The position numbers and the translations under genes are program-made. From Candidatus Izimoplasma sp. HR2 (lineage in GTDB: Bacteria; Bacillota_I; Bacilli_A; Izemoplasmatales; Izemoplasmataceae), in assembly GCA_000753575.1 (NCBI GenBank), contig JRFF01000011.1, positions 19,592-83,591 on the forward strand: DNA of 64,000 nt, in the 5' to 3' direction. The notes under the pieces are model-generated. The model made no database searches and was not told where the DNA came from. It worked only from the letters and a program-made list of their open reading frames with translations. Positions 37,949 through 53,770 of this stretch are shown here, piece after piece. Every line of letters starts with the position of its first letter. Within the stretch, counting starts at the first letter, position 1.

Positions 37949-38149
37949 ATACCCTATAAGGGTATATATTTGTGCATATGCACTTGTTTAAATATAATCT
38001 TTATAATTATCTTATTTATAAAAAGTGTTTAAACCGCTATGTATAACCATTTGTAAATATTGTTTGATTTATAAACTATTTCGTATACAAAATAGGTCTT
38101 GTCGGATGTTTTTTACTTATATATAATATAAGTAGAAAAGGTGATGTTT

Positions 38150-39067
38150 ATGAAGTTTATGGAGATCTTTAATCGTGATTTAAACACCAGTTTAAATCAG
38201 GAAAATAAAGATGTTGATGCTTTTCGCCTCCAAGTGGATTTAATATTAAAATCACTTGTGGAAAGATTAAACGACAATAAAATAGCTATAGTAATTGGTG
38301 CGGGGAAAATGAAAGATTTTTCCGCAACCTTTTTTGTGCGTAGATTTGATGAGGTCGTTTTAACAGATGTTGATATGAACACTGTTATTGAAGCGGAAAG
38401 TAAATTAAATTTAAGTGAAAAAGATAAGAAAAAGATTACTAAGATTAGAATTGAATATACAGGTTTTGAGAAAAATGCTTTTTTCCAAGACTTTAAAGAA
38501 AGAATTATTAACTGTCGTACTTTTGAAAAAATTGATCAAGTTATTTCTAGTAAATTACAAGGACTTGAAGATTATCGATTTTTAAGAGATTATGAAGGTT
38601 GTGGAGATTTAGTTTATGTTTCTCCAATTTATACGCAGTTAGTTTATAATCAGATTTTAAGAGAATGCTCAGTTTTACGTGAGAATGGATATCCTGAACA
38701 TATGCTTAAATATATTGAAAATACTATGTTAGATAAAATGGTTCAAATTATAGATACTTTTAATGACAATATAATTACAACATTAAAAGACGACGGTTAT
38801 TTAATTGTACTTAGTGATGTTTTCCAACTTGATAAGAAAAGTAATTTCTATTTAAGAGTTAAAAATGGAATAAGAAGTCACGAAGTAATGGAAGAGATGT
38901 ATGAAGGATACAAGAAGAAGTATGGTATGGGAATTGGGGATTATGGACTTTTGAACCTTGATGAGAAATTGAAATCATATTTATCTAGATGGCTGATTTG
39001 GCCTTATGATGAAGATAGTTCGTTTGTTGTTAAGTTAAAAATATATAAAAAAAGATTAAAAGAATAG
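38150..39067 (+). CDS. Hypothetical protein, Rossmann/SAM-methyltransferase-like N-terminus
   Basis: 'IAIVIGAGKMKDFSATFFVRRFDEVVLTDVD'. Confidence 0.45.
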   Translation: MKFMEIFNRDLNTSLNQENKDVDAFRLQVDLILKSLVERLNDNKIAIVIGAGKMKDFSATFFVRRFDEVVLTDVDMNTVIEAESKLNLSEKDKKKITKIRIEYTGFEKNAFFQDFKERIINCRTFEKIDQVISSKLQGLEDYRFLRDYEGCGDLVYVSPIYTQLVYNQILRECSVLRENGYPEHMLKYIENTMLDKMVQIIDTFNDNIITTLKDDGYLIVLSDVFQLDKKSNFYLRVKNGIRSHEVMEEMYEGYKKKYGMGIGDYGLLNLDEKLKSYLSRWLIWPYDEDSSFVVKLKIYKKRLKE

Positions 39068-39082
39068 AAGGAGGAATTATTT

Positions 39083-39571
39083 ATGAAGTATGTAGCAACT
39101 TTTTTAGTACTTTTTGTGAGTTATATAGCACTTGCAGGAATTCATGTACAAGAATTGTTACTCGGGGCAATCGTTAGTGCTATCTTAACTGTTATCTTAG
39201 CGAAACATGTTAATTACACAATTGATTATCGTTTCCCAGTGAAACTTCTAGTGTTTATTTTTGCTTATTTACCACTGTTCGTATGGCAATTGGTTTTATC
39301 GAACTTGGCAGTAGCAAGAATCGTTTTAAGTCCTAGGATTAAGAAACATTTAAATCCTGGTTTTGTAAAGATCAATACGGACTTAAAAGGTGATTTTGCG
39401 AAGTTAACACTTGCAAACTCAATTACACTAACACCTGGTACTTTATCAGTTGATATTGATGGTAATGATATTTATATCCATACCGTTTATATTAAAGGTA
39501 AAACACCAGAAGAAAACAGACAAAATATTAGTGCCAAATTTGAAAAAGTGTTGGGAGTGGTTTTTAAATGA
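39083..39571 (+). CDS. mrpE: Mrp antiporter subunit E-like (MbsA/MbxA equivalent)
   Basis: MrpE motif 'LTLANSITLTPGTLSVDIDGNDIYIHTVYIKG'. Confidence 0.85.
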   Translation: MKYVATFLVLFVSYIALAGIHVQELLLGAIVSAILTVILAKHVNYTIDYRFPVKLLVFIFAYLPLFVWQLVLSNLAVARIVLSPRIKKHLNPGFVKINTDLKGDFAKLTLANSITLTPGTLSVDIDGNDIYIHTVYIKGKTPEENRQNISAKFEKVLGVVFK

Positions 39572-39828
39572 TGGATATAATAGTCTTTTCTCTAATAGGA
39601 CTTGGCGTTTTATTCGCAGTTTCTAGATTGCTTATAGGGCCTACGCCTGCCGACAGAGTTGTATCGTTAGATACTTTTAACATTATAGTTATTGGAGTTA
39701 TTGCTTTACTTGCTAATCAATTTGAAAATAGTTTATATCTAGATATCGCAATTGTTTATGGAATCTTAGCATTCATAGAAACAATCGTATTTGCTAGATA
39801 CTTGGAGGGTCAACATGGAGATTGCTAG
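39568..39828 (+). CDS. mrpF: Mrp antiporter subunit F-like
   Basis: 'GPTPADRVVSLDTFNIIVIGVIALLA'. Confidence 0.82.
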   Translation: MMDIIVFSLIGLGVLFAVSRLLIGPTPADRVVSLDTFNIIVIGVIALLANQFENSLYLDIAIVYGILAFIETIVFARYLEGQHGDC

Positions 39829-40150
39829 TTATATATTTATGACAATCGGTGGATTGTTCTACCTTCTAGGAGGACTTGGTATTTTAAGAATGCCAGATAC
39901 ATTTAACAGAATTCAAGCAGGTACAAAAGCAACAACTTTAGGAGCATTCACATTATTAATTGGTATTGGATTTAATAACCCGGAATGGTTCCCTAAATTA
40001 TTATTAATTATTGTATTTATAGCTTTTGCTAATCCTATTGGTTCTAGTGCTTTAGCTAAAGCTTCATATAAGAGTTGTGATTTGCCAGACAACCTAGTAC
40101 AAGATGATTTAATCGATTTGTTTGGAGGTAAAGAAGATGGACCTAGTTAA
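39815..40150 (+). CDS. mrpG: Mrp antiporter subunit G-like
   Basis: 'GILRMPDTFNRIQAGTKATTLGAFTLLIG'; ATG 39815. Confidence 0.85.
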   Translation: MEIASYIFMTIGGLFYLLGGLGILRMPDTFNRIQAGTKATTLGAFTLLIGIGFNNPEWFPKLLLIIVFIAFANPIGSSALAKASYKSCDLPDNLVQDDLIDLFGGKEDGPS

Positions 40151-40388
40151 TATTGTTGAAATAATAGTTTCAGTATTGATGCTTATTCTTGCTTTCCTTG
40201 CAATTAATTCAAAATCTTTAGTTAAATCAGTTATGTTCTTATCAGCTTTAAGTATGTTAGCTGTTGTTGGATTTGTTTTAATGAAAGCACCTGATGTTGC
40301 AGTAACTGAAGCAGTAATTGGGAGTGGACTTGTAACAAGTTTATTTATATTTACTTTACTAGCTGCTAGAAAGGTAGGTAATAAATAA
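40137..40388 (+). CDS. Mrp B N-terminal/MbhD-like subunit
   Basis: 'MFLSALSMLAVVGFVLMKAPDVAVTEAVIGSGLVTSLFIFTL'. Confidence 0.8.
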   Translation: MDLVNIVEIIVSVLMLILAFLAINSKSLVKSVMFLSALSMLAVVGFVLMKAPDVAVTEAVIGSGLVTSLFIFTLLAARKVGNK

Positions 40389-41134
40389 TGAAAAACTTTT
40401 TAGCGTTTATTACTGTGTTAGTTCTTGGATACATGATTGTTGTATCTTTAGATAATAATGAAGCTTTTCCAGCATATGGAGAAGCAGATGTTAGTTCACG
40501 TGTTTCACAAGCTTTTATAGATAGAAGTGTTACAGAAGATCCAGGAGATATTATATTTGGACAAGCTACTAATTTAGAAAGTGGTCCAGCTAATATCGTT
40601 ACTGCGATTGTTGCTGATTACCGTAGTTTTGATACATTAGGAGAAGTTACTGTATTATTCGTAAGTTCACTTGGTGTTGCATTATTACTTGGTGGTAAAA
40701 AACAAAAACGTTTAGAACTTAACTTCCATCCTAACTTTATGTTAAGAGTTGGTAGTAGAGCATTGTTCGGTATTATTTTAATGACTGGAGTTTATATTGC
40801 TATTCATGGGCATTTAACTCCTGGTGGTGGGTTCCCTGGTGGAGCTATGATTGCATCATCAATGTTGTTACTATATTTAGCTGATGATGAATTTAGAGCA
40901 AAAATAAAAGGATTCAAAATGTTAGAAAGTTTCGCAGGAACAGCTTATGTATTAATCGGTTTAACTGGTTTATTACTTGGTGGTTACTTCTTAGAAAACT
41001 TACTTGATAATGGTGTTATCGGTGATTTATTTAGTGCTGGTATTATCCCAATAGTATATGTACTTATTGGATTAAAAGTTGGTAGTGAAATTTCTGGTAT
41101 TATTGACAATTTCCTTACAGAGGAGGGTGTTTAA
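40388..41134 (+). CDS. mrpB: MrpB/MnhB-domain subunit
   Basis: 'IHGHLTPGGGFPGGAMIASSMLL'. Confidence 0.85.
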   Translation: MKNFLAFITVLVLGYMIVVSLDNNEAFPAYGEADVSSRVSQAFIDRSVTEDPGDIIFGQATNLESGPANIVTAIVADYRSFDTLGEVTVLFVSSLGVALLLGGKKQKRLELNFHPNFMLRVGSRALFGIILMTGVYIAIHGHLTPGGGFPGGAMIASSMLLLYLADDEFRAKIKGFKMLESFAGTAYVLIGLTGLLLGGYFLENLLDNGVIGDLFSAGIIPIVYVLIGLKVGSEISGIIDNFLTEEGV

Positions 41135-41135
41135 T

Positions 41136-41471
41136 ATGTTACAGTACGCTGCGATAGCAATGTTGATGTTAGGACTTTATGGTCTATTAACTCAAAGAAA
41201 TATTATAAAAATTATTGTTTCAATAAACATTCTTGAAATAGGACTTAACTTATTTATTGTTAGTGTTGGTTATGTTGAAGGTGGAATTGCTCCTATCTTA
41301 ACAAGTGACTTTAACAATAATGGATTAGTATTTGTTGATCCACTTCCTAGTGCTTTAGTACTTACTGCGATTGTTATCGGTGTTGGGACAACTGCTTTAG
41401 GACTTGCATTAGCTAAAAACATTTATCAAAAGTATGGAACTTTTGAAATAGATGAAATGGGGGAAGAATAA
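41136..41471 (+). CDS. mrpC: MrpC/NuoK-like subunit
   Basis: 'LPSALVLTAIVIGVGTTALGLALA'; ATG 41136. Confidence 0.85.
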   Translation: MLQYAAIAMLMLGLYGLLTQRNIIKIIVSINILEIGLNLFIVSVGYVEGGIAPILTSDFNNNGLVFVDPLPSALVLTAIVIGVGTTALGLALAKNIYQKYGTFEIDEMGEE

Positions 41472-41472
41472 G

Positions 41473-42855
41473 ATGAGTGCGATATTATTAATTGCAGTTC
41501 CCTTGTTAGCTGCCTTTATTTCAATATTATTTAAAAAGTATGCACATTACATCCTTGTCTTTGTATCATTTGCTAGTGTGTTTGCTCTTGGTTATATGGA
41601 TTTAGGAACAATTACTGTTGGTGGATTTAATGCACCATTTGGTATTGTATTAATTTTAGATGATTATAGTTTAATTGCCCTTTATATAGTAAATACGTTG
41701 TTCTTCTTAGTAGCAATACTAAATTGTAACGAATTTAAAAAAGTTGGTTCTATTATGTTAGTAGCACTTGCTGGATTAAACGGATTATTACTAACTGGTG
41801 ATTTATTCAACTTATTTGTATTTTTAGAAGTAGCAGGAATCGCTGCTTACTTAATTACTACTACAAATAAAAAACCACTTGCATCGTTCAATTATTTAAT
41901 TCAAGGAACTGTTGGTAGTAGTTTATATTTACTTGGTTTAATTTTACTTTATGCAATGTTTGGAACTTTAAATATGGCAGATATGGCAAGTTCAATTGCA
42001 AATAGTGGATATGGTGCAGGAGTTACTGCATTCCCATTCTTACTAATGTTTATTGGATTTGGGGTTGAAGCTAAGTTATTACCATTTAACTCGTGGACTA
42101 AAGGAATTTTAGCTAATTCTAATAGATTAACTGGTCCGATGATTGCTTCAGTTTATGCTGCTGCAATTGGATTTGTATTTGGTAGATTATTAACTAATGT
42201 ATTTGTTATTGAAGATACATTCTTAATCATTGTAACAATTATATTAATATTCAGCGTTGTTGCTGGTGAGGCAATGGCTTATGCATCAACTAAGGTAAGA
42301 GAAATCTTATTATATTCAAGTGTTGCTCAAGCAGCACTAGTAGTAGTTGTGTTTATGAGTGGATTCACTGGTTGGGCTGTATATTTAATTATTGGAAATG
42401 CTGCTGCTAAGTTAGTATTATTCTTAATAACTAATACAGCAACTAAACAGTTAGGTAATGATGATGTTGAAACGTTTAAAGGATTATTTGTTAATAACAA
42501 AGTAATCGGACTTGCGTTCACTGCTGTTACTTTAAGTGTTATTGGATTACCAATGTTCCTTGGTTTCGTTACTAAAATGAATATTTTAGAAAATATGTTT
42601 GTTTCTGGTGATTATATATGGCCAGCTATTATTCTTATTACTAGCGTTGTTGAAGGAATTTACTTTATTAGACTATTACTTAACTTATGGTATAAAGAAA
42701 ATGATTTACCAGAAGTTAAATTTGAATTTGTATTAAAATATGTTGTTGTAATTATTGCTGTATTAATAATGGTATTTGGTGTTTACACTGAACCTGTTCA
42801 AGATTCAGCTGATAATTTAGTAGCATATTCGTACATTGAAGGAGGGAACCTATAA
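41473..42855 (+). CDS. mrpD: MrpD/NuoN-like antiporter subunit
   Basis: Proton_antipo_M features 'LTGDLFNLFVFLEVAGIAAYLI', 'LPFNSWTKG'; ATG 41473. Confidence 0.85.
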   Translation: MSAILLIAVPLLAAFISILFKKYAHYILVFVSFASVFALGYMDLGTITVGGFNAPFGIVLILDDYSLIALYIVNTLFFLVAILNCNEFKKVGSIMLVALAGLNGLLLTGDLFNLFVFLEVAGIAAYLITTTNKKPLASFNYLIQGTVGSSLYLLGLILLYAMFGTLNMADMASSIANSGYGAGVTAFPFLLMFIGFGVEAKLLPFNSWTKGILANSNRLTGPMIASVYAAAIGFVFGRLLTNVFVIEDTFLIIVTIILIFSVVAGEAMAYASTKVREILLYSSVAQAALVVVVFMSGFTGWAVYLIIGNAAAKLVLFLITNTATKQLGNDDVETFKGLFVNNKVIGLAFTAVTLSVIGLPMFLGFVTKMNILENMFVSGDYIWPAIILITSVVEGIYFIRLLLNLWYKENDLPEVKFEFVLKYVVVIIAVLIMVFGVYTEPVQDSADNLVAYSYIEGGNL

Positions 42856-44717
42856 TGACTGTTGAGTTACTTATACTAGTTGCACTAGCTTCTGGGATCC
42901 TTGCTTACTTTGTTGGAAGACTTAATAAAGTTTTAGGTGCTGTTGTTACAATAGTAGCAAGTATGTTTATCTTTATTATGATTGGTTACATGATGCAAGA
43001 TATTAATGCTGGTACAACATTTAATTATAATGCTGTTGAATATATGCCAGACTTTGTAACGTTTATGGTTACATATTTAGGATTGTTCTTTGCAATTCTA
43101 GTTACATTTATCTTTGCAATGGTTTCATTCTTTAATCCGTTCTTTGTAGAAAAATATAAATACCCTGCTTTATATAGTATGCTTTACTTATTCAGTTTAG
43201 CAGGTGTACTTGGAGTATTCTTAACTGATAACTTCATGGTATTATTCTTCTTCTTTGAATTTATTGTTTGGAGTGGGTTATTCTTAATTCCTCTAGGTAA
43301 AAATAATAAAGCTGCAATATCATATTATGCATTTAGTACTGCAGGAAGTTTTGCATTACTATACGCTATCTTCATTATGTTTGCACAAACTGGAAGTTAT
43401 AATCTTCATTTAGGACTTGCGACAGTTAGTGGAACTACTGAAGGTACTTATGTTCTTGCATTGTTAGCATTTGCTGCATTTGCAAAACTTGGGGCATTCC
43501 CACTTAATGTTTGGTTACCTCGAGCTTTAGGTAAAGCACCTGATGCTATTACCGCAGTATTTAGTGGTGGACTTGAAAAGTTAGGCGCATTCGTTGCAGT
43601 TCTTGCTCTTGTTAAACTTGCACCTATTGGTGATATAGCTGGTACTTTAGGAGGATTAACTGAGGCAACGTTCTTATTTGCTTCTCAGTATATCGTAGCA
43701 ACTTTAGGAGCTATGACAATCGTCTTTGGTACGTTGATGGCTATTCGTCAAGATGATGCTAAAAAATTACTTGCTTATAGTTCTATGAGTAATGGTGGAT
43801 ATATCTTAGTTGCACTTAGTTTAGGTGGAACACTAGGTTTATCTGGTGGGTTATACCACATCGTAGCACATGCACTTGCTAGTGCTGCAGCATTCCTTGC
43901 AATAGGAGCTGTATCACGTGTTACTGGAACTACAAAAATGAGTGAACTTGGTGGGATGATTCATAAGATGCCAGTTACTTATATGGTTTACTTAATTGCA
44001 ATTATCAGTATGGCTGGTATTCCTCCTATGGGTGGATTTATTAGTAAATGGCTTATATTCCAAGCTGTTATTGATAATGGATTAATCTTGATTGCTGTTG
44101 CAGTATTCTTTGGTAGTATAGGTAGTTTCTTATACGTATTTAGACCACTTGCTGCATTATTCTTAGGTCAAGAATTACCACAGCATAGAGATAAAGCGAA
44201 AGAAGCTCCATTCTTTATGTTATTACCAATGTTAATCTTAAGTGGATTAATCGTGTTCACAGGAGTAATGCCTAACATCTTCTTAGATTTTATAAATGAT
44301 GTTATTGCTGAACTTGGAGGAACTGGTTTATTACTTGGTGATTATACAATTACTGGAGTTAACGGTGTGTTACAACCTACATTAATTGCATCTGTATTTG
44401 GTGTTGGTGTGTTAATTGCATTTATAATCTTTATCCTTCTTAAGAAATCTAAAAAAGTTGGACTTATGGATACATATACTGCTGGTAACTTTATATATAC
44501 TGAAGAGTTAATGCATTATAGTTTAGATTTTTATGCTCCGCTTGAAAGATTATATGAAAAACATATTAATATAACTAAAGACTTCTATAAAAAATTAGAA
44601 AATAAGGTAGTTGATTTTGGTAGAATGATTAAGTATTTCTTCTTTACTAATAAACCTGAAATCACAGTCTTTTGGATAATTGTTCTTATAGGATTCTTAT
44701 TGTGGGGTGAATTATAA
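42855..44717 (+). CDS. NuoL/MbhH'-like proton-translocating subunit with C-terminal lateral extension
   Basis: 'GAFPLNVWLPRALGKAPDAITAVFSGGLEKLGAF', 'AGIPPMGGFISKW'; C-terminal amphipathic helix plus TM. Confidence 0.82.
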   Translation: MTVELLILVALASGILAYFVGRLNKVLGAVVTIVASMFIFIMIGYMMQDINAGTTFNYNAVEYMPDFVTFMVTYLGLFFAILVTFIFAMVSFFNPFFVEKYKYPALYSMLYLFSLAGVLGVFLTDNFMVLFFFFEFIVWSGLFLIPLGKNNKAAISYYAFSTAGSFALLYAIFIMFAQTGSYNLHLGLATVSGTTEGTYVLALLAFAAFAKLGAFPLNVWLPRALGKAPDAITAVFSGGLEKLGAFVAVLALVKLAPIGDIAGTLGGLTEATFLFASQYIVATLGAMTIVFGTLMAIRQDDAKKLLAYSSMSNGGYILVALSLGGTLGLSGGLYHIVAHALASAAAFLAIGAVSRVTGTTKMSELGGMIHKMPVTYMVYLIAIISMAGIPPMGGFISKWLIFQAVIDNGLILIAVAVFFGSIGSFLYVFRPLAALFLGQELPQHRDKAKEAPFFMLLPMLILSGLIVFTGVMPNIFLDFINDVIAELGGTGLLLGDYTITGVNGVLQPTLIASVFGVGVLIAFIIFILLKKSKKVGLMDTYTAGNFIYTEELMHYSLDFYAPLERLYEKHINITKDFYKKLENKVVDFGRMIKYFFFTNKPEITVFWIIVLIGFLLWGEL

Positions 44718-45631
44718 TGATTGATATATTATTAATGATCTTAACTGGTATCGGTGTTGCGTTATTCGGATTTGTTCTTCAAACTTCAATTGCTGGTGTA
44801 AACCGTAAAGTTGTTGCTAGAGTTCAAAAAAGATATGGACCAAAATGGTATCAAGAGTTTTTAGATATATTCAAATTATTAAGTAAAAGAAGTGTAACAC
44901 ATGGTTGGATCTTCGACTTTGGTGTAATTATGGCTTTAGGTGGAATTATTGGGACGGCAATGTTTATGCCTCTTACAAGTTCATTTATGGCATTTGATGG
45001 TTATGATAACTTCTTTATCTTTGTATATTTAATTGCTGTAGGAATGTTAGGTATGGCTATGAGTGCTAGTGGTAGTGGTAACCCACTTGCTAGTATCGGG
45101 GTTATGCGTGCTCTTACAACAATGCTTGCTTATGAAGTTCCATTTATGATTGTTGTTTTAACAATAATTAAAATAACTGGAACAAGTAGCTTATCAGAAA
45201 TAGGATTATTCCAGCAGGTTGCTGGAAATAGTTGGTTCTTTATAGCTTTACCTATTGGTGGAATTGTTGCTGTAATGGCTTTAATGGGTATGCTTGGTAA
45301 GAAACCATTTGAAACTTATATAGCTCCTGCTGAAATCGCATCAGGGCCAATGGTTGAATATGGTGGAAAACAACTTGGTATGTTATTCATTATGCATGAA
45401 ATTACAGTATTCATCGAAGTAAGTTTATTTGTACACTTATTCTTAGGTGGAGCTGAAAATATAGTGTTATTTATAGTTAAATACTTTGTTGTTTATACTG
45501 CATTAAATATTATATCTAGTGTTTATGGTCGATTCAAAATTGATCAAGTAGTATTATTCTTCTATAAATGGCCATTAATTATGGCTATAACTCAAGCGTT
45601 TATCGCAATTTATTTAGGGTGGGTGATTTAA
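44717..45631 (+). CDS. NuoH/MbhM-like membrane subunit
   Basis: 'KRYGPKWYQEFLDIFKLLSKRS', 'PFETYIAPAEIASGPMVEYGGKQLGMLFI'. Confidence 0.87.
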   Translation: MIDILLMILTGIGVALFGFVLQTSIAGVNRKVVARVQKRYGPKWYQEFLDIFKLLSKRSVTHGWIFDFGVIMALGGIIGTAMFMPLTSSFMAFDGYDNFFIFVYLIAVGMLGMAMSASGSGNPLASIGVMRALTTMLAYEVPFMIVVLTIIKITGTSSLSEIGLFQQVAGNSWFFIALPIGGIVAVMALMGMLGKKPFETYIAPAEIASGPMVEYGGKQLGMLFIMHEITVFIEVSLFVHLFLGGAENIVLFIVKYFVVYTALNIISSVYGRFKIDQVVLFFYKWPLIMAITQAFIAIYLGWVI

Positions 45632-46201
45632 ATGTTGTCAACTAAATTTTCGCCAATGTCTAAAGAAGAAGTAGACAGAAAATGGTGGGAAATCGGAGAT
45701 TTCTTTAGAAGAAATTCTCTATGGATGTTAATGTATTGTACTGGATGTTGTGCTATCGAATTACCTCCTGCAATGACTTCTGCTTATGATATGGAAAGAC
45801 TTGGTATGGGTCCTATGGCTACACCTCGTCAAGCAGATGTATTACTTGTAACTGGTTATTTATCTTTAAAAACGCTACGTCGTTTGATTTATACTTATGA
45901 ACAAATGAGTGAACCTAAATATATTGTTGGGTTTGGTAGTTGTACTATAAACGGTGGGATCTATCATGATTCACATGCCGTAATTAATCAATTAAATAAA
46001 TATATTCCTGTAGATGTTTTTGTAGCTGGGTGTATGCCTAATACAGAAGCAGTAATGAATGGGTTTGTAGATTTAATGGATTTAATAAAAAATAAAAAAG
46101 CAAATGGTTGGAAAGATTATCATGAAAGATATGAATGGTATTTAGCTAACCAAAAAGCCGCTCTTGGGGAGGTTAGAGTCCATGACGAATTCCATGAGTA
46201 A
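45632..46201 (+). CDS. NuoB/MbhJ-like [4Fe-4S] subunit
   Basis: 'CTGCCAIELPPAM', 'GFGSCTINGGIY', 'VAGCMPNTEAVM'. Confidence 0.87.
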   Translation: MLSTKFSPMSKEEVDRKWWEIGDFFRRNSLWMLMYCTGCCAIELPPAMTSAYDMERLGMGPMATPRQADVLLVTGYLSLKTLRRLIYTYEQMSEPKYIVGFGSCTINGGIYHDSHAVINQLNKYIPVDVFVAGCMPNTEAVMNGFVDLMDLIKNKKANGWKDYHERYEWYLANQKAALGEVRVHDEFHE

Positions 46202-46772
46202 TACTGAATTTGTAACTAACTTAGTTGAAAGCAAGTTCAAAGTACTAAGTACTGAAGTTCTTGATAAGTATCAAGTTAGTTTTGAAGTTAAAAAAGAAGA
46301 TGTTCATAGTTTATTAAGTTTATTAAAAACTAGTGGATGGATTCAGTTATCATATTTAAGTGCTGTAGACTGGCCAAATGATAATGAGTTTGAATTAGTT
46401 TATATCGTATTTAACTGGGATAAAGCAGTTCATATTCAAATTAGATGTCGATTAGATAGAGAAACAGCTAGTATGAATAGTATCTTACCTATTTTCCCTG
46501 GATGTAAATATTACGAAAGAGAAGCACATGAATTCTTTGGAATTAAATTCCCTGGAAATCCAGATCATGAGAAACAACTTATTTTAGAAGAATGGGATGA
46601 TATTCCACCTCTAAGAAAAGACTTTGATCCTCGTGCTTATTCTGATAGAAAATTTAGTAAAATGGAATATAAAAATGACTTCGTTAATAAAAATGGTGAA
46701 GTTAGTAAACAAGATGCACGTACTAAGAGATACGATGATATTGATAAGTTAAGAACAGGAGGGAAAAAATAA
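46182..46772 (+). CDS. NuoC/MbhK-like subunit
   Basis: 'FPGCKYYEREAHEFFGIKFPGNPDHEKQLILEEWDDIPPLRKDFD'. Confidence 0.85.
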   Translation: MTNSMSNTEFVTNLVESKFKVLSTEVLDKYQVSFEVKKEDVHSLLSLLKTSGWIQLSYLSAVDWPNDNEFELVYIVFNWDKAVHIQIRCRLDRETASMNSILPIFPGCKYYEREAHEFFGIKFPGNPDHEKQLILEEWDDIPPLRKDFDPRAYSDRKFSKMEYKNDFVNKNGEVSKQDARTKRYDDIDKLRTGGKK

Positions 46773-47878
46773 TGAAAGAGATGAAATTATTTTTAGGACC
46801 TCAACATCCTGGGATGCATGGTAATGCTTCTGTACACATTTATGTAGATGGAGATATTATTAAGAAATCATTTTTACTTCCAGGTATGTTACATCGTGGA
46901 TTTGAAAAAGGTATGGAACGTCATTCATGGGTTAACAATATTAGTTTAATTCCTAGAGTTTGCGTTGTAGAACCTGATACAAATGAAATGGCATTTGCAA
47001 TGGCTGTTGAAATGTTAGCAAAATTAGAAGTACCTGAAAGAGCACACTGGATTAGAATGATTATATTAGAGTTAGCTAGATTAAGTATCCATTTAATGGC
47101 TTATGGTGGTCTAGGAAGTCCTACTGGACTTTACACTATGATGTATCATGCTCATACAGATAGAAATACAATCCTTAATATCTTTGAAAAGATTACTGGA
47201 CACCGTGTGTATCATCAATATATCGTTCCTGGTGGAGTTAGAAAAGATTTACCAGTTGGTATTGAAAAAGATATTCATAGTTTCTTAGATGATTTAGAAT
47301 CAAGATATGAAGAATATAGAGATTTAGGTATTAATAATCCTACTATTCAAGCTCGTATTAATGATACTATTCCACTTCCTGCAGAAGTTGTATGGGAACT
47401 TGGTGTTACTGGTATTGGTATGAGAAGTGCGGTTAATAAACCTTATGATTTAAGAAAAGTTAAACCTTATGCAAGATATGATCAAGTTGAATTTGATGTT
47501 CCTGTAGCTCCTTATAGTGATGCGTATGCACGTGTTGACTGTAAACTACAAGAAGTAGTTCAATCTATTGGTATTATTCGTCAGTGTTTAGCAAAAATGC
47601 CTGAAGGTGACGTTCGCGTACCAATTAGTAGAGGTCAAGCAATGCGTTGGACAGTTCCTAAAGGACATGTTTATGCTTGTGTTGAATCAAGTCGTGGTGA
47701 ATTTGGTTACTTTATGGTTAGTGATGGTGGAACTAATCCTTACAGAGTTGGTGTAAGGGGTGCAAGTTATCCTCAAGGATTACTTGGAATTGAAAAATAT
47801 TTACCTGGAACTCGTTTAGACGACGCAGCTTTATGGGTAGATACTATGGGTGTTTGTTCACCTGAAATAGATAGATAG
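46772..47878 (+). CDS. NuoD/MbsL-like catalytic large subunit (not a canonical [NiFe] hydrogenase)
   Basis: 'LGPQHPGMHG', 'RVCVVEPD' and C-terminal 'DTMGVCSPEIDR': one Cys in each of the two usual CxxC motifs. Confidence 0.82.
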   Translation: MKEMKLFLGPQHPGMHGNASVHIYVDGDIIKKSFLLPGMLHRGFEKGMERHSWVNNISLIPRVCVVEPDTNEMAFAMAVEMLAKLEVPERAHWIRMIILELARLSIHLMAYGGLGSPTGLYTMMYHAHTDRNTILNIFEKITGHRVYHQYIVPGGVRKDLPVGIEKDIHSFLDDLESRYEEYRDLGINNPTIQARINDTIPLPAEVVWELGVTGIGMRSAVNKPYDLRKVKPYARYDQVEFDVPVAPYSDAYARVDCKLQEVVQSIGIIRQCLAKMPEGDVRVPISRGQAMRWTVPKGHVYACVESSRGEFGYFMVSDGGTNPYRVGVRGASYPQGLLGIEKYLPGTRLDDAALWVDTMGVCSPEIDR

Positions 47879-47891
47879 GAGTGATTGAATA

Positions 47892-49868
47892 ATGAAAAAA
47901 CAATATAGTATTTTTACATCATGGCGTCACTTTAAACATCTATTTAAAAAACCACTTACTATCCCATTCACTGAAATATTCACTAAGAAAAATGCTGATT
48001 ACTTAAATAAAAATTCAATTTTAAAATCAAAGAAAAATGTAGAATGTAGTAGCCCAAGAGTAGGTGCTGATAACTTACGTGGTTTCCATACTAATGATTG
48101 GGAAGTATGTATTGGTTGTGGGACTTGTGAAGATATTTGTCCTACTGAAGCTATTAATATGGTTGAAAGATTAGATATTAAAGATGAAGAAGGTAAATTA
48201 CAACAACGTCCTACTATTGATTATGGTAGATGTTGCTTCTGTGCATTATGCGTTGATATTTGTACTTCTGATTCTCTTAAAATGAGTAAAGAATATGTTT
48301 ATAGTCATGAAGATCCTAACGCTTTTGAAATTATGCCTGAAGCCTTATGGCAAGGACAAGCTGTAGAAGAAGGATGGACTAAAACTGAAGCATCTAATTT
48401 ACTTGATTTAGAAAGAATTGATATGGAACATGAAGATCCAGAAGAACGTAAATCTTCATTTATTGAAATCGTTAGAGGATATTCTAAAGAGTACGCTAAA
48501 CAAGAAGCAGCACGTTGTGTTGAATGTGGAGTTTGTACTGGTAGTTGTCCTGTTCAAATGCATATCCCTGCTTATATTAAAGCAATATGGGAAGATGATA
48601 TTGAAGGTGGATTAAGACAAATTTATGAGACTAATCCATTACCTGGTGTCTGTGGTAGAGTTTGTACACATAACTGTGAAACTGCATGTTCTATCGCTGT
48701 TAAAGGTGAAGCAATTGCAATTAGATGGCTTAAACGTTATATAATTGATAGTGCACCTACAGATATGTATGAAAAAATATTAAGTGAACCTGTTAGTGAA
48801 GTAATCGATGCTAGAGTAGCTGTAGTTGGAGCTGGTCCTGCTGGACTAGGTGCTGCTTACTACTTAAAAGTTATGGGTTATAAAGTTGACGTTTATGAAG
48901 AAAAACCAATGTCAGGTGGAGTAATGAGATATGGGATTCCTTCGTATAGATTACCAGACAGTGCAATTGATAAAGATATTGATTTCATTGAAAAAATTGG
49001 TGTTAAGATGATTCTTAACACACGTGTTGGTAGAGATATATCGATGGAAAAACTTGAAAAAGATTACGACGCAGTGTTCTTAGGTACAGGGTTCTTCAAA
49101 CCACGTACATTAGGAATTCCTGGTGGAGACCATAAAGATGTTATCGGAGCTATGACATTCTTACCTCAAGTTAGAGACTTCGAAAGACGAGTGTTAAAGC
49201 TTGAAGATATTGATGTAGCTAAAAGTGTTGTAGTAATCGGTGGTGGAGATGTTGCGTTTGACGTTGCAAGAAGTGCTACTAGATTACAAATGCTTAAATA
49301 TGGTAAATCTGATGTTAAATTAACTTCACTAGAAAATGAAGATCAACTTCCGTCATCTGATGATGAATTAATCGAAGGTAGCGAGGAAGGAATCGAATTA
49401 TTCTGTGGAAATGGACCTCAAGAAGTTATGATTAAAAATAACAAAGTTACAGGTCTTAGATTATGGAAATGTTTATGTATCTTTGATGAAGCAGGAAGTT
49501 TCAATCCTGAATATGATAAAGAATGTGAACAAATTATTGAAGGACAACAAGTTTATATCGCAATTGGTCAGTCACCTGACTATGATTATATTCCTAAGTC
49601 ACTTCAAGGTAAACTTCAGTTTGTTAGAGGTAAAATTGCCGCTGATGAATTCGGACAAGTTAAAGATCTTCCTTGGTTATTCGTAGGTGGAGACATCTTA
49701 CGCGGACCAGACTTAATTAGCGGTGTTGCTGATGGTCATCGTGCTGCTCAAGGTATTGATGAATATCTATATACAAATGCAAAAAAGAAAGAAGCATCTG
49801 ATACACTTAAAGAAATGAGACTTGCTGCTAAAGCGCAAACTCCTGGACTTACTTTTAGACAAAAATAG
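47892..49868 (+). CDS. Fusion of NuoI/MbhN-like 2x[4Fe-4S] ferredoxin with GltD-like FAD/NAD(P)H oxidoreductase
   Basis: 'CIGCGTCEDICP...CCFCALCVDICT', then 'CVECGVCTGSCPVQMHIPAYIKAI...GVCGRVCTHNCETAC', 'VAVVGAGPAGLGAAYYL', 'VVVIGGGDVAFDVARS'. Confidence 0.85.
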   Translation: MKKQYSIFTSWRHFKHLFKKPLTIPFTEIFTKKNADYLNKNSILKSKKNVECSSPRVGADNLRGFHTNDWEVCIGCGTCEDICPTEAINMVERLDIKDEEGKLQQRPTIDYGRCCFCALCVDICTSDSLKMSKEYVYSHEDPNAFEIMPEALWQGQAVEEGWTKTEASNLLDLERIDMEHEDPEERKSSFIEIVRGYSKEYAKQEAARCVECGVCTGSCPVQMHIPAYIKAIWEDDIEGGLRQIYETNPLPGVCGRVCTHNCETACSIAVKGEAIAIRWLKRYIIDSAPTDMYEKILSEPVSEVIDARVAVVGAGPAGLGAAYYLKVMGYKVDVYEEKPMSGGVMRYGIPSYRLPDSAIDKDIDFIEKIGVKMILNTRVGRDISMEKLEKDYDAVFLGTGFFKPRTLGIPGGDHKDVIGAMTFLPQVRDFERRVLKLEDIDVAKSVVVIGGGDVAFDVARSATRLQMLKYGKSDVKLTSLENEDQLPSSDDELIEGSEEGIELFCGNGPQEVMIKNNKVTGLRLWKCLCIFDEAGSFNPEYDKECEQIIEGQQVYIAIGQSPDYDYIPKSLQGKLQFVRGKIAADEFGQVKDLPWLFVGGDILRGPDLISGVADGHRAAQGIDEYLYTNAKKKEASDTLKEMRLAAKAQTPGLTFRQK

Positions 49869-52295: not shown

Positions 52296-52438
52296 TTTTA
52301 AATCCTCCTTTTATTTGCTTTCACTATAGTAACAAATGAAGTCTGATTTTTATTGGAATTATTTACAAAAAAAATTGAAATGCTAGTTTTAATAATTTAT
52401 AATGATATATGGTAATATATTAATAAGGAGTTGATTTG

Positions 52439-53770
52439 ATGAAAGTAGTAGCAATCGGTGGGGTCGCTTTATCAATGAGCGCAGTTAGCAAACTTAAAAG
52501 ACTTAATAAAAATATTGATATAGTAGTATATGAAAAAGGTGAAGTACTAAGTTATGGTGCTTGTGGAATGCCTTACTATATAAGTGATGAAATAAAGGAT
52601 TCTGCTAGATTAGTAGCTAGAACTAAATCACAGTTTAAAGATTTAGGGATTACTGTTCACACTAAACATGAAGTAGTAAAAGTACATGACAGGGTTAAAG
52701 AGATTGAAATCCTAAATTTAGAAACAAATGAAATCATCAAAGATACATATGATAAGTTAATAATTGGAACTGGAGCTAGTGCTGTTGTACCTCCTTGGAA
52801 GAATGTTAGTTTAAGTAATATATTTAAATTAAGTGTTTATGAAGATAGTATAAAGATTAAAGAAGAGATTGATAAAGGCCATATTAGAAAAGTTACTGTT
52901 ATTGGTGCTGGATTTATTGGTCTTGAAATGGTTGAAGCATTTTTAACAAGAGGTCTTGAAGTTACATTAATTCAACTAGATGAACAAATCTTAAGTATAT
53001 TTGATGCGGAATTAACTATTCCTATTGAAGATCATTTAAGAAGTAAAGATGTTAAGTTATTATTAGGTGAAAAAGTAATTGGATTTGATGGATACAATAC
53101 TGTTAGTAAAGTTTTAACTGATAAAGGTGAATATGATACTGACTTAGTATTAGTAAGTATAGGCGTTAAACCAAATACTGAATTCTTAAAAGGAAGCAAT
53201 ATAAATTTAGCAAAAAATGGGGCAGTAGAAGTAAATCAATTTATGGAAACGTCAGTACTTAGTGTCTATAGTGGTGGAGATTGCGCAATGATTTATAATT
53301 TAGCTTTAAAAGAAAATAGTTATTTACCAATGGGAAGTAACGCTAATAAACAAGGTAGAGTAATCGCTGAGAATATAAGTGGTAATAGATTTAAGTTTAA
53401 TGGTGTACTTGGAACAATTGTTATTAAGATAATTGATATGGAAGCAGCTATGACTGGTGTAAATGAAAAACTAGCAATAGCTAAGAATATAAAGCATAAA
53501 ACAGTTACTATAACTGGGAAAAATCATGCTGGATATTATCCTAATCCACAGCCTATAACTGTTAAAGTAATATATGATCCGTCAACATTTGTAATACTAG
53601 GAGCAGAGTTAGTTGGATATAAAGATACAGCTTTACGTGTTAACGTATTTGCTCTAGCTATTCAAAAAGGTATGACTACTAAAGAATTGGGATTTTTAGA
53701 TTTAGCTTATGCACCACCATTCGCTGGTGTATGGGATGTTATTCAAGTTGCAGTTAATCAAGCAAAATAA
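52439..53770 (+). CDS. CoA-disulfide reductase / NSR-type FAD oxidoreductase
   Basis: 'GEVLSYGACGMPYYISDEI' active Cys in CoADR position, 'VTVIGAGFIGLEMVEAF', 'VYSGGDCA', C-terminal dimerisation domain. Confidence 0.82.
   Translation: MKVVAIGGVALSMSAVSKLKRLNKNIDIVVYEKGEVLSYGACGMPYYISDEIKDSARLVARTKSQFKDLGITVHTKHEVVKVHDRVKEIEILNLETNEIIKDTYDKLIIGTGASAVVPPWKNVSLSNIFKLSVYEDSIKIKEEIDKGHIRKVTVIGAGFIGLEMVEAFLTRGLEVTLIQLDEQILSIFDAELTIPIEDHLRSKDVKLLLGEKVIGFDGYNTVSKVLTDKGEYDTDLVLVSIGVKPNTEFLKGSNINLAKNGAVEVNQFMETSVLSVYSGGDCAMIYNLALKENSYLPMGSNANKQGRVIAENISGNRFKFNGVLGTIVIKIIDMEAAMTGVNEKLAIAKNIKHKTVTITGKNHAGYYPNPQPITVKVIYDPSTFVILGAELVGYKDTALRVNVFALAIQKGMTTKELGFLDLAYAPPFAGVWDVIQVAVNQAK

Follow-up and report, generated by a model that had tools for sequence, protein, structure and literature searches.

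What supplies electrons to a complex I-type pump whose last gene encodes a ferredoxin-like subunit fused to a flavin oxidoreductase, and where do those electrons go? The question is raised by a gene at 47892..49868 (+) of the window, the 64,000-nucleotide stretch of contig JRFF01000011.1 from Candidatus Izimoplasma sp. HR2 analyzed here. Its ORF, profile matches, and structural model describe a 658-aa subunit that combines an MbsN/NuoI-like part with an NfnL/GltD-like part (NF010590/PRK13984 family). The donors of bacterial Mbx complexes have so far been assigned by analogy with archaeal MBS, as for ferredoxin in Thermotoga maritima (PMC9431562), and for the MBX of the Riftia symbiont both function and direction have been left open (PMC11636981). 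With slightly better than even confidence, we read the fusion as a predicted linear, non-bifurcating NAD(H) input subunit of an ion-pumping Mrp-Mbx complex whose acceptor would be sulfane sulfur or a disulfide.

The fusion is genuine. One ORF with an ATG start and zero internal stops joins an MbsN/NuoI subunit to a complete NfnL/GltD-type FAD/NAD module, as the first-pass annotation had proposed, and Pfam places Fer4_7 at residues 73-127, Fer4_20 (the DPD/GltD N-terminal domain) at 187-288, and Pyr_redox_2 at 308-609. The MbsN/NuoI-like part (residues 1-150, 47892..48341), which includes an N-terminal stretch in common with Pyrococcus MbsN, carries two CxxCxxCxxxC motifs for [4Fe-4S] clusters, one formed by C73, C76, C79, and C83 (48108..48140) and the other by C114, C117, C120, and C124 (48231..48263). 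The GltD/DPD-type two-cluster domain (48450..48755), delimited by Pfam and alignment, contributes eight further cysteines in C209-C219 and C254-C266, and it is followed by the FAD Rossmann motif GAGPAG (residues 313-318, 48828..48845) and the NAD Rossmann motif GGGDVAFD (residues 450-457, 49239..49262), all on the + strand. In an alignment spanning at least six bacterial phyla, all 16 cluster cysteines are invariant in 86/86 homologues. An AlphaFold2 (AF2) model of the fusion reached a pLDDT of 88 and a pTM of 0.83, and Foldseek matched its GltD half to NfnL 5jca with a target TM of 0.89. Among the solved chains listed, none spans both halves of the fusion by sequence.

The possibility of a missed stop near 48350, which the first-pass annotation had allowed for, is excluded because the fusion is unbroken elsewhere, including seven other sampled Bacilli genomes and the loci of named genomes, and because the cluster cysteines are invariant. 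An assembly error or frameshift joining two ORFs is likewise ruled out by the many independent genomes with an unbroken fusion, and its probability is practically nil. In a class sample of 120 genomes that includes the window's own, every genome with this type of NuoD (E below 1e-200) has the fusion (7/7, again counting the window's own), and these seven are also the only ones of the sample in which the fusion occurs. A scan of species genomes returned 156 relatives of the fusion, and the 80 that were kept come from Izemoplasmatales, other Bacilli, Clostridia, Thermotogota, Spirochaetota, WOR-3, Cloacimonadota, Mcinerneyibacterium, and sulfur-oxidizing Gammaproteobacteria. The fusion is widespread in anaerobes and sulfur bacteria. 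Its tree has two sides, one of Bacillota/Mycoplasmatota and the other of Thermotogota/Spirochaetota/Pseudomonadota; on the latter, the Thermotogota form a single group, as do the Pseudomonadota.

The fusion is also already in the databases, only as a function-less "putative oxidoreductase". NCBIfam model NF010590 (PRK13984) matches it end to end (838 bits, E 3e-252), with fusion residues 54-628 aligned to profile positions 33-608. The Izemoplasma score lies below the curated equivalog cut-off of 946 bits, which is exceeded by a Thermotogaceae homologue (L050, 1157 bits), by a spirochaete homologue (L058, 953 bits), and by the protein of T. maritima, the sole control genome remaining at E 1e-150. 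The arrangement had been described as uncharacterized. As regards biochemistry this stands, since we found no paper on the fusion in a literature search that left subscription journals mostly outside, so that an earlier Thermotoga description is possible; as an arrangement, however, it was already modeled full length in NF010590 and is present in T. maritima.

The fusion is normally the final gene of a 13-gene Mrp-Mbx operon. In the window, the genes that precede it on the + strand encode MrpE-like (MNHE, 39083..39571), MrpF-like (39568..39828), MrpG-like (39791..40150), MbhD-like (40122..40388), MbhE/MnhB-like (40388..41134), and NuoK/MrpC-like (41079..41471) subunits, the NuoN/MrpD-like (41452..42855) and NuoM/L-like (42855..44717, NuoL in the operon order) pump subunits, and the NuoH/MbsM-like (44717..45631), NuoB/MbsJ-like (45632..46201), NuoC-like (46164..46772), and NuoD/MbsL-like (46772..47878) proteins. 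The complete set was found in 48 of the 54 loci with enough upstream DNA, and the exact order in 40 by a strict test; three Thiotrichaceae loci in this count have the fusion only. Divergence of the fusion follows that of NuoD (r 0.86, 0/500 permutations) and NuoB (r 0.86). These 13 subunits, with an Mrp-type membrane arm and a NuoH/B/C/D/I-like peripheral part, are those of an Mrp-Mbx/MBS complex, and the position of the fusion as last gene of an operon with MBS-like NuoB, NuoD, and NuoI bears out its designation as the terminal subunit of an Mbs/Mbx-type complex. Neither a NuoEFG input module nor a gene for an NfnS partner is present in the operon, in the window or in the loci examined. The absence of NuoEFG supports the earlier idea that the fusion wires the complex to a pyridine nucleotide in its place; the suggestion that it also replaces soluble ferredoxin is less secure, since the NuoI clusters may still offer it a docking site and exchange electrons with it.

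Variations on this neighborhood were seen in several loci. In Thiotrichaceae (L079, L081, L087, and L091), the fusion gene stands alone, apart from the Mrp-Mbx operon. Three spirochaete fusions (L058 9962-12244, L068 9914-12154, and L077 9905-12154) have a C-terminal extension of ~150 aa. A separate rubrerythrin-like gene, located right behind the fusion in L081 and L079 of the Thiotrichaceae, is a relative of the L058 extension (E 4e-14). In the window, a 308-aa ORF without a Pfam match (38141-39067, +) lies immediately upstream of mrpE.

NAD(P)H had been named as the input, and the evidence retains a pyridine nucleotide while narrowing the choice to NAD(H). The NADP-binding YRR of NfnL is missing in every row of the alignment; 77/82 rows read x-L/M-E at this position, and the other five comprise four with A-R-K (Clostridia-type) and one with G-S-A. 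The window fusion reads S479-L480-E481 (49326..49334, +). In DsrL, loss of YRR accompanies measured NAD(H) use or preference (PMC7596348), and from the same absence we infer that NAD(H) is the predicted substrate of the fusion. As an internal control, the separate Nfn pair that this genome encodes on a different contig retains both YRR and the glutamate cluster ligand. The likely carrier of A-R-K at the NAD/NADP position is a four-row, mostly Clostridia clade (L061, L063, L067, and L070), whose members may use NADP(H).

The GltD module is nearest to bifurcating NfnL in both sequence and fold, so an Nfn-like enzyme that bifurcates or confurcates, using NADH and ferredoxin together at the GltD-type flavin, has to be considered. 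We regard this as improbable. The glutamate that ligates a cluster in NfnL is replaced by lysine in 86/86 homologues (K281 in the window fusion, 48732..48734, +), and the operon has no NfnS-like partner. Among solved structures, this position is E in NfnL (4ylf and 5jca) and K in 9bov and 9n5u, the relatives through which the lysine of StnC was equated with K281. StnC, in which a GltD-type input module is combined with a NuoG-like domain, likewise has a lysine at this proximal cluster, and its corresponding flavin is non-bifurcating (PMC10482914), and the E126C change in NfnL uncouples the bifurcation branches (PMC9503767). The substitution, the missing partner, and the StnC precedent all point to a non-bifurcating flavin with linear electron transfer.

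From this flavin, electrons would pass into a NuoI part that, judged by sequence, is specifically MbsN-like. It matches Pyrococcus MBS subunit N (6u8y_N) at E 9.5e-19 in an alignment that extends to the N-terminal "LFKKPxTI" stretch, and the family profile scores 4e-37 for MbsN versus 5e-19 or weaker for the NuoI chains of complex I. In the path that we propose, NADH would bind the GltD-like part and transfer hydride to FAD. Electrons would leave FAD singly and without bifurcation, first through the GltD-type pair of [4Fe-4S] clusters and then, within the same polypeptide, through the NuoI-type pair. From there they would move on to the cluster of NuoB and finally to an acceptor within the NuoB/NuoD/NuoH cavity.

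The opposite entry point is taken by an Rnf-like ferredoxin:NAD+ oxidoreductase, in which reduced ferredoxin would donate at the NuoI clusters and NAD+ would be reduced at the GltD part. This draws on ferredoxin as the donor of Pyrococcus MBS (PMC7684303), on its assumed role in T. maritima MBX (PMC9431562), and on an Fd:NADP+ role cited for archaeal Mbx (PMC6349859). Flow from NuoI to GltD would, however, bypass NuoB and NuoD and leave their conserved cysteines without use. Coupling in this superfamily occurs at NuoB/NuoD. By inspection, the same genome also has Rnf-like genes after an [FeFe] hydrogenase gene on one contig, and on this evidence we consider ferredoxin:NAD+ oxidoreduction unlikely. 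The fusion suggests instead that the donor of bacterial Mbx complexes is NADH and not, as has been assumed, ferredoxin.

For the acceptor, the relevant proteins are NuoD and NuoB. NuoD, of which the genome has one homologue only, keeps just C64 and C362 of the Ni-ligand positions; it lacks the full set of four Ni-binding cysteines of a group 4 [NiFe] hydrogenase and retains the two that remain in MbsL, as in Mrp-Mbx/MBS. The NuoB loop at the proximal cluster has the length of MbsJ, aligning ungapped to 6u8y_J with its CxxC (CTGC). Among solved structures, MBS subunits are in each case the nearest relatives, for NuoB and NuoD as well as for the NuoI part. The "Mbs" label given earlier holds in the sense of Mbs/Mbx-type but is not fully accurate for this clade, since window-clade NuoB has an extra tandem cysteine that MBS lacks: CTGCC (45737-45751) combines the MBS-type CxxC with the complex I-type tandem cysteine in one protein, whose cysteines are C36, C39, C40, C104, and C134. 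C40, which aligns with the second tandem cysteine of complex I, occurs in 23 rows, while 36 rows have G there as in MBS, and CTGCC is confined to the Izemoplasma branch and some of the Clostridia. Catalysis by MBS on polysulfide depends on an open-iron site of the proximal cluster (PMC7684303), a site that C40 may close in the window clade.

This extra cysteine would complete the ligand set of complex I cluster N2, and window-clade NuoD retains the His of the complex I motif (H16), both of which would suit an NADH:quinone oxidoreductase, that is, complex I with GltD in place of NuoEFG. The quinone-site Tyr, however, is replaced by Val, and a search for UbiA prenyltransferase found none in 8/8 fusion-carrying Bacilli genomes, with all 14 control genomes positive. 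Quinone is therefore unlikely as the acceptor in these Bacilli, and we give NADH:quinone oxidoreduction a slim chance overall; since the UbiA search covered Bacilli, quinone use is possible in Gammaproteobacteria. Because of the MBS-like features of NuoD and NuoB and the doubt about quinone, sulfane sulfur or another disulfide is the most likely acceptor, with modest confidence. The mbx genes of T. maritima are up-regulated by S0 (PMC9431562).

A CoA-disulfide reductase/NAD(P)H sulfur reductase gene (52436-53770, +; NF007123, 528 bits, above cut-off) lies 2.6 kb downstream of the fusion. A gene of this family is also found <3 kb from the fusion in five Izemoplasma loci (L014, L017, L018, L022, and L037). 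The link to sulfur through this gene is weak, since the CoA-disulfide/polysulfide reductase family is frequent in the class, with members in 65/120 genomes, and a search at 1e-100 gave no hit in two complete genomes that have the fusion.

By established potentials, little energy is released when electrons pass from NADH to polysulfide, so that either weak pumping, at best, or operation in reverse is to be expected. Reduction of the acceptor would power the NuoN/NuoL/Mrp membrane arm for Na+/H+ transport. The reaction probably lies close to equilibrium and is probably reversible, and in sulfur-oxidizing Gammaproteobacteria it could run in reverse as ion-driven NAD+ reduction. We infer the order of electron flow and the pumping from sequence comparisons, and the acceptor and direction, which amount to a guess, are the least certain parts of the proposal. 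A broader and more speculative reading, possible but doubtful, is that GltD-input relatives of complex I form a widespread group of disulfide/sulfane-sulfur oxidoreductases that are linked to NAD(H), translocate ions, and work reversibly. Fermenters would run them forward, and sulfur-oxidizing symbionts and giant sulfur bacteria would run them backward, using ion flow to reduce NAD+ with electrons from reduced sulfur. An NADH donor would change ATP yields and redox balances in these organisms, as well as the direction in which electrons flow, and would make the fusion a second way, besides NuoEFG, of joining a complex I-type pump to NAD(H). The NADH-donor proposal is directly testable in T. 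maritima.

Each part of this arrangement has relatives in known systems. AegA and YgfT also have an N-terminal ferredoxin and GltD, although their matches are weaker (E 3e-81 and 3e-64), and we know of no link between them and an Mrp-Mbx operon. DsrL-1 is an NfnB-like flavoprotein with two extra [4Fe-4S] clusters and an NAD(H) triplet without YRR, but its extra ferredoxin domain is C-terminal and its partner is rDsrAB. NfnL/NfnB of Nfn (4ylf and 5jca) has the same fold as the GltD part at ~33% identity; unlike the fusion, it requires NfnS and has YRR and the Glu ligand, both motifs being absent here. StnC/NfnABC subunit A (8oh5, 9bov, and 9n5u) offers, as here, a GltD-type pyridine-nucleotide port on complex I-like parts, and in 9bov and 9n5u Lys takes the place of the Glu ligand. 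It differs in being joined to NuoG/formate-dehydrogenase-like parts outside any membrane pump, and StnC is linked to NADPH and passes electrons to a bifurcating module of the HydBC type. The proteins of NF010590/PRK13984 in T. maritima and other Thermotogota have the same two modules and match end to end, while the Izemoplasma fusion has extra residues in its N-terminal part and a C-terminal tail; the model assigns no function. Pyrococcus MBS/Mbx (6u8y) likewise has 13 subunits, and its MbsJ, MbsL, and MbsN are nearest to the NuoB, NuoD, and NuoI parts described here. In Pyrococcus, however, MbsN is a stand-alone, ferredoxin-accepting subunit, whereas here it is fused to a predicted NAD(H) module and accompanied by a NuoB with an extra cysteine.
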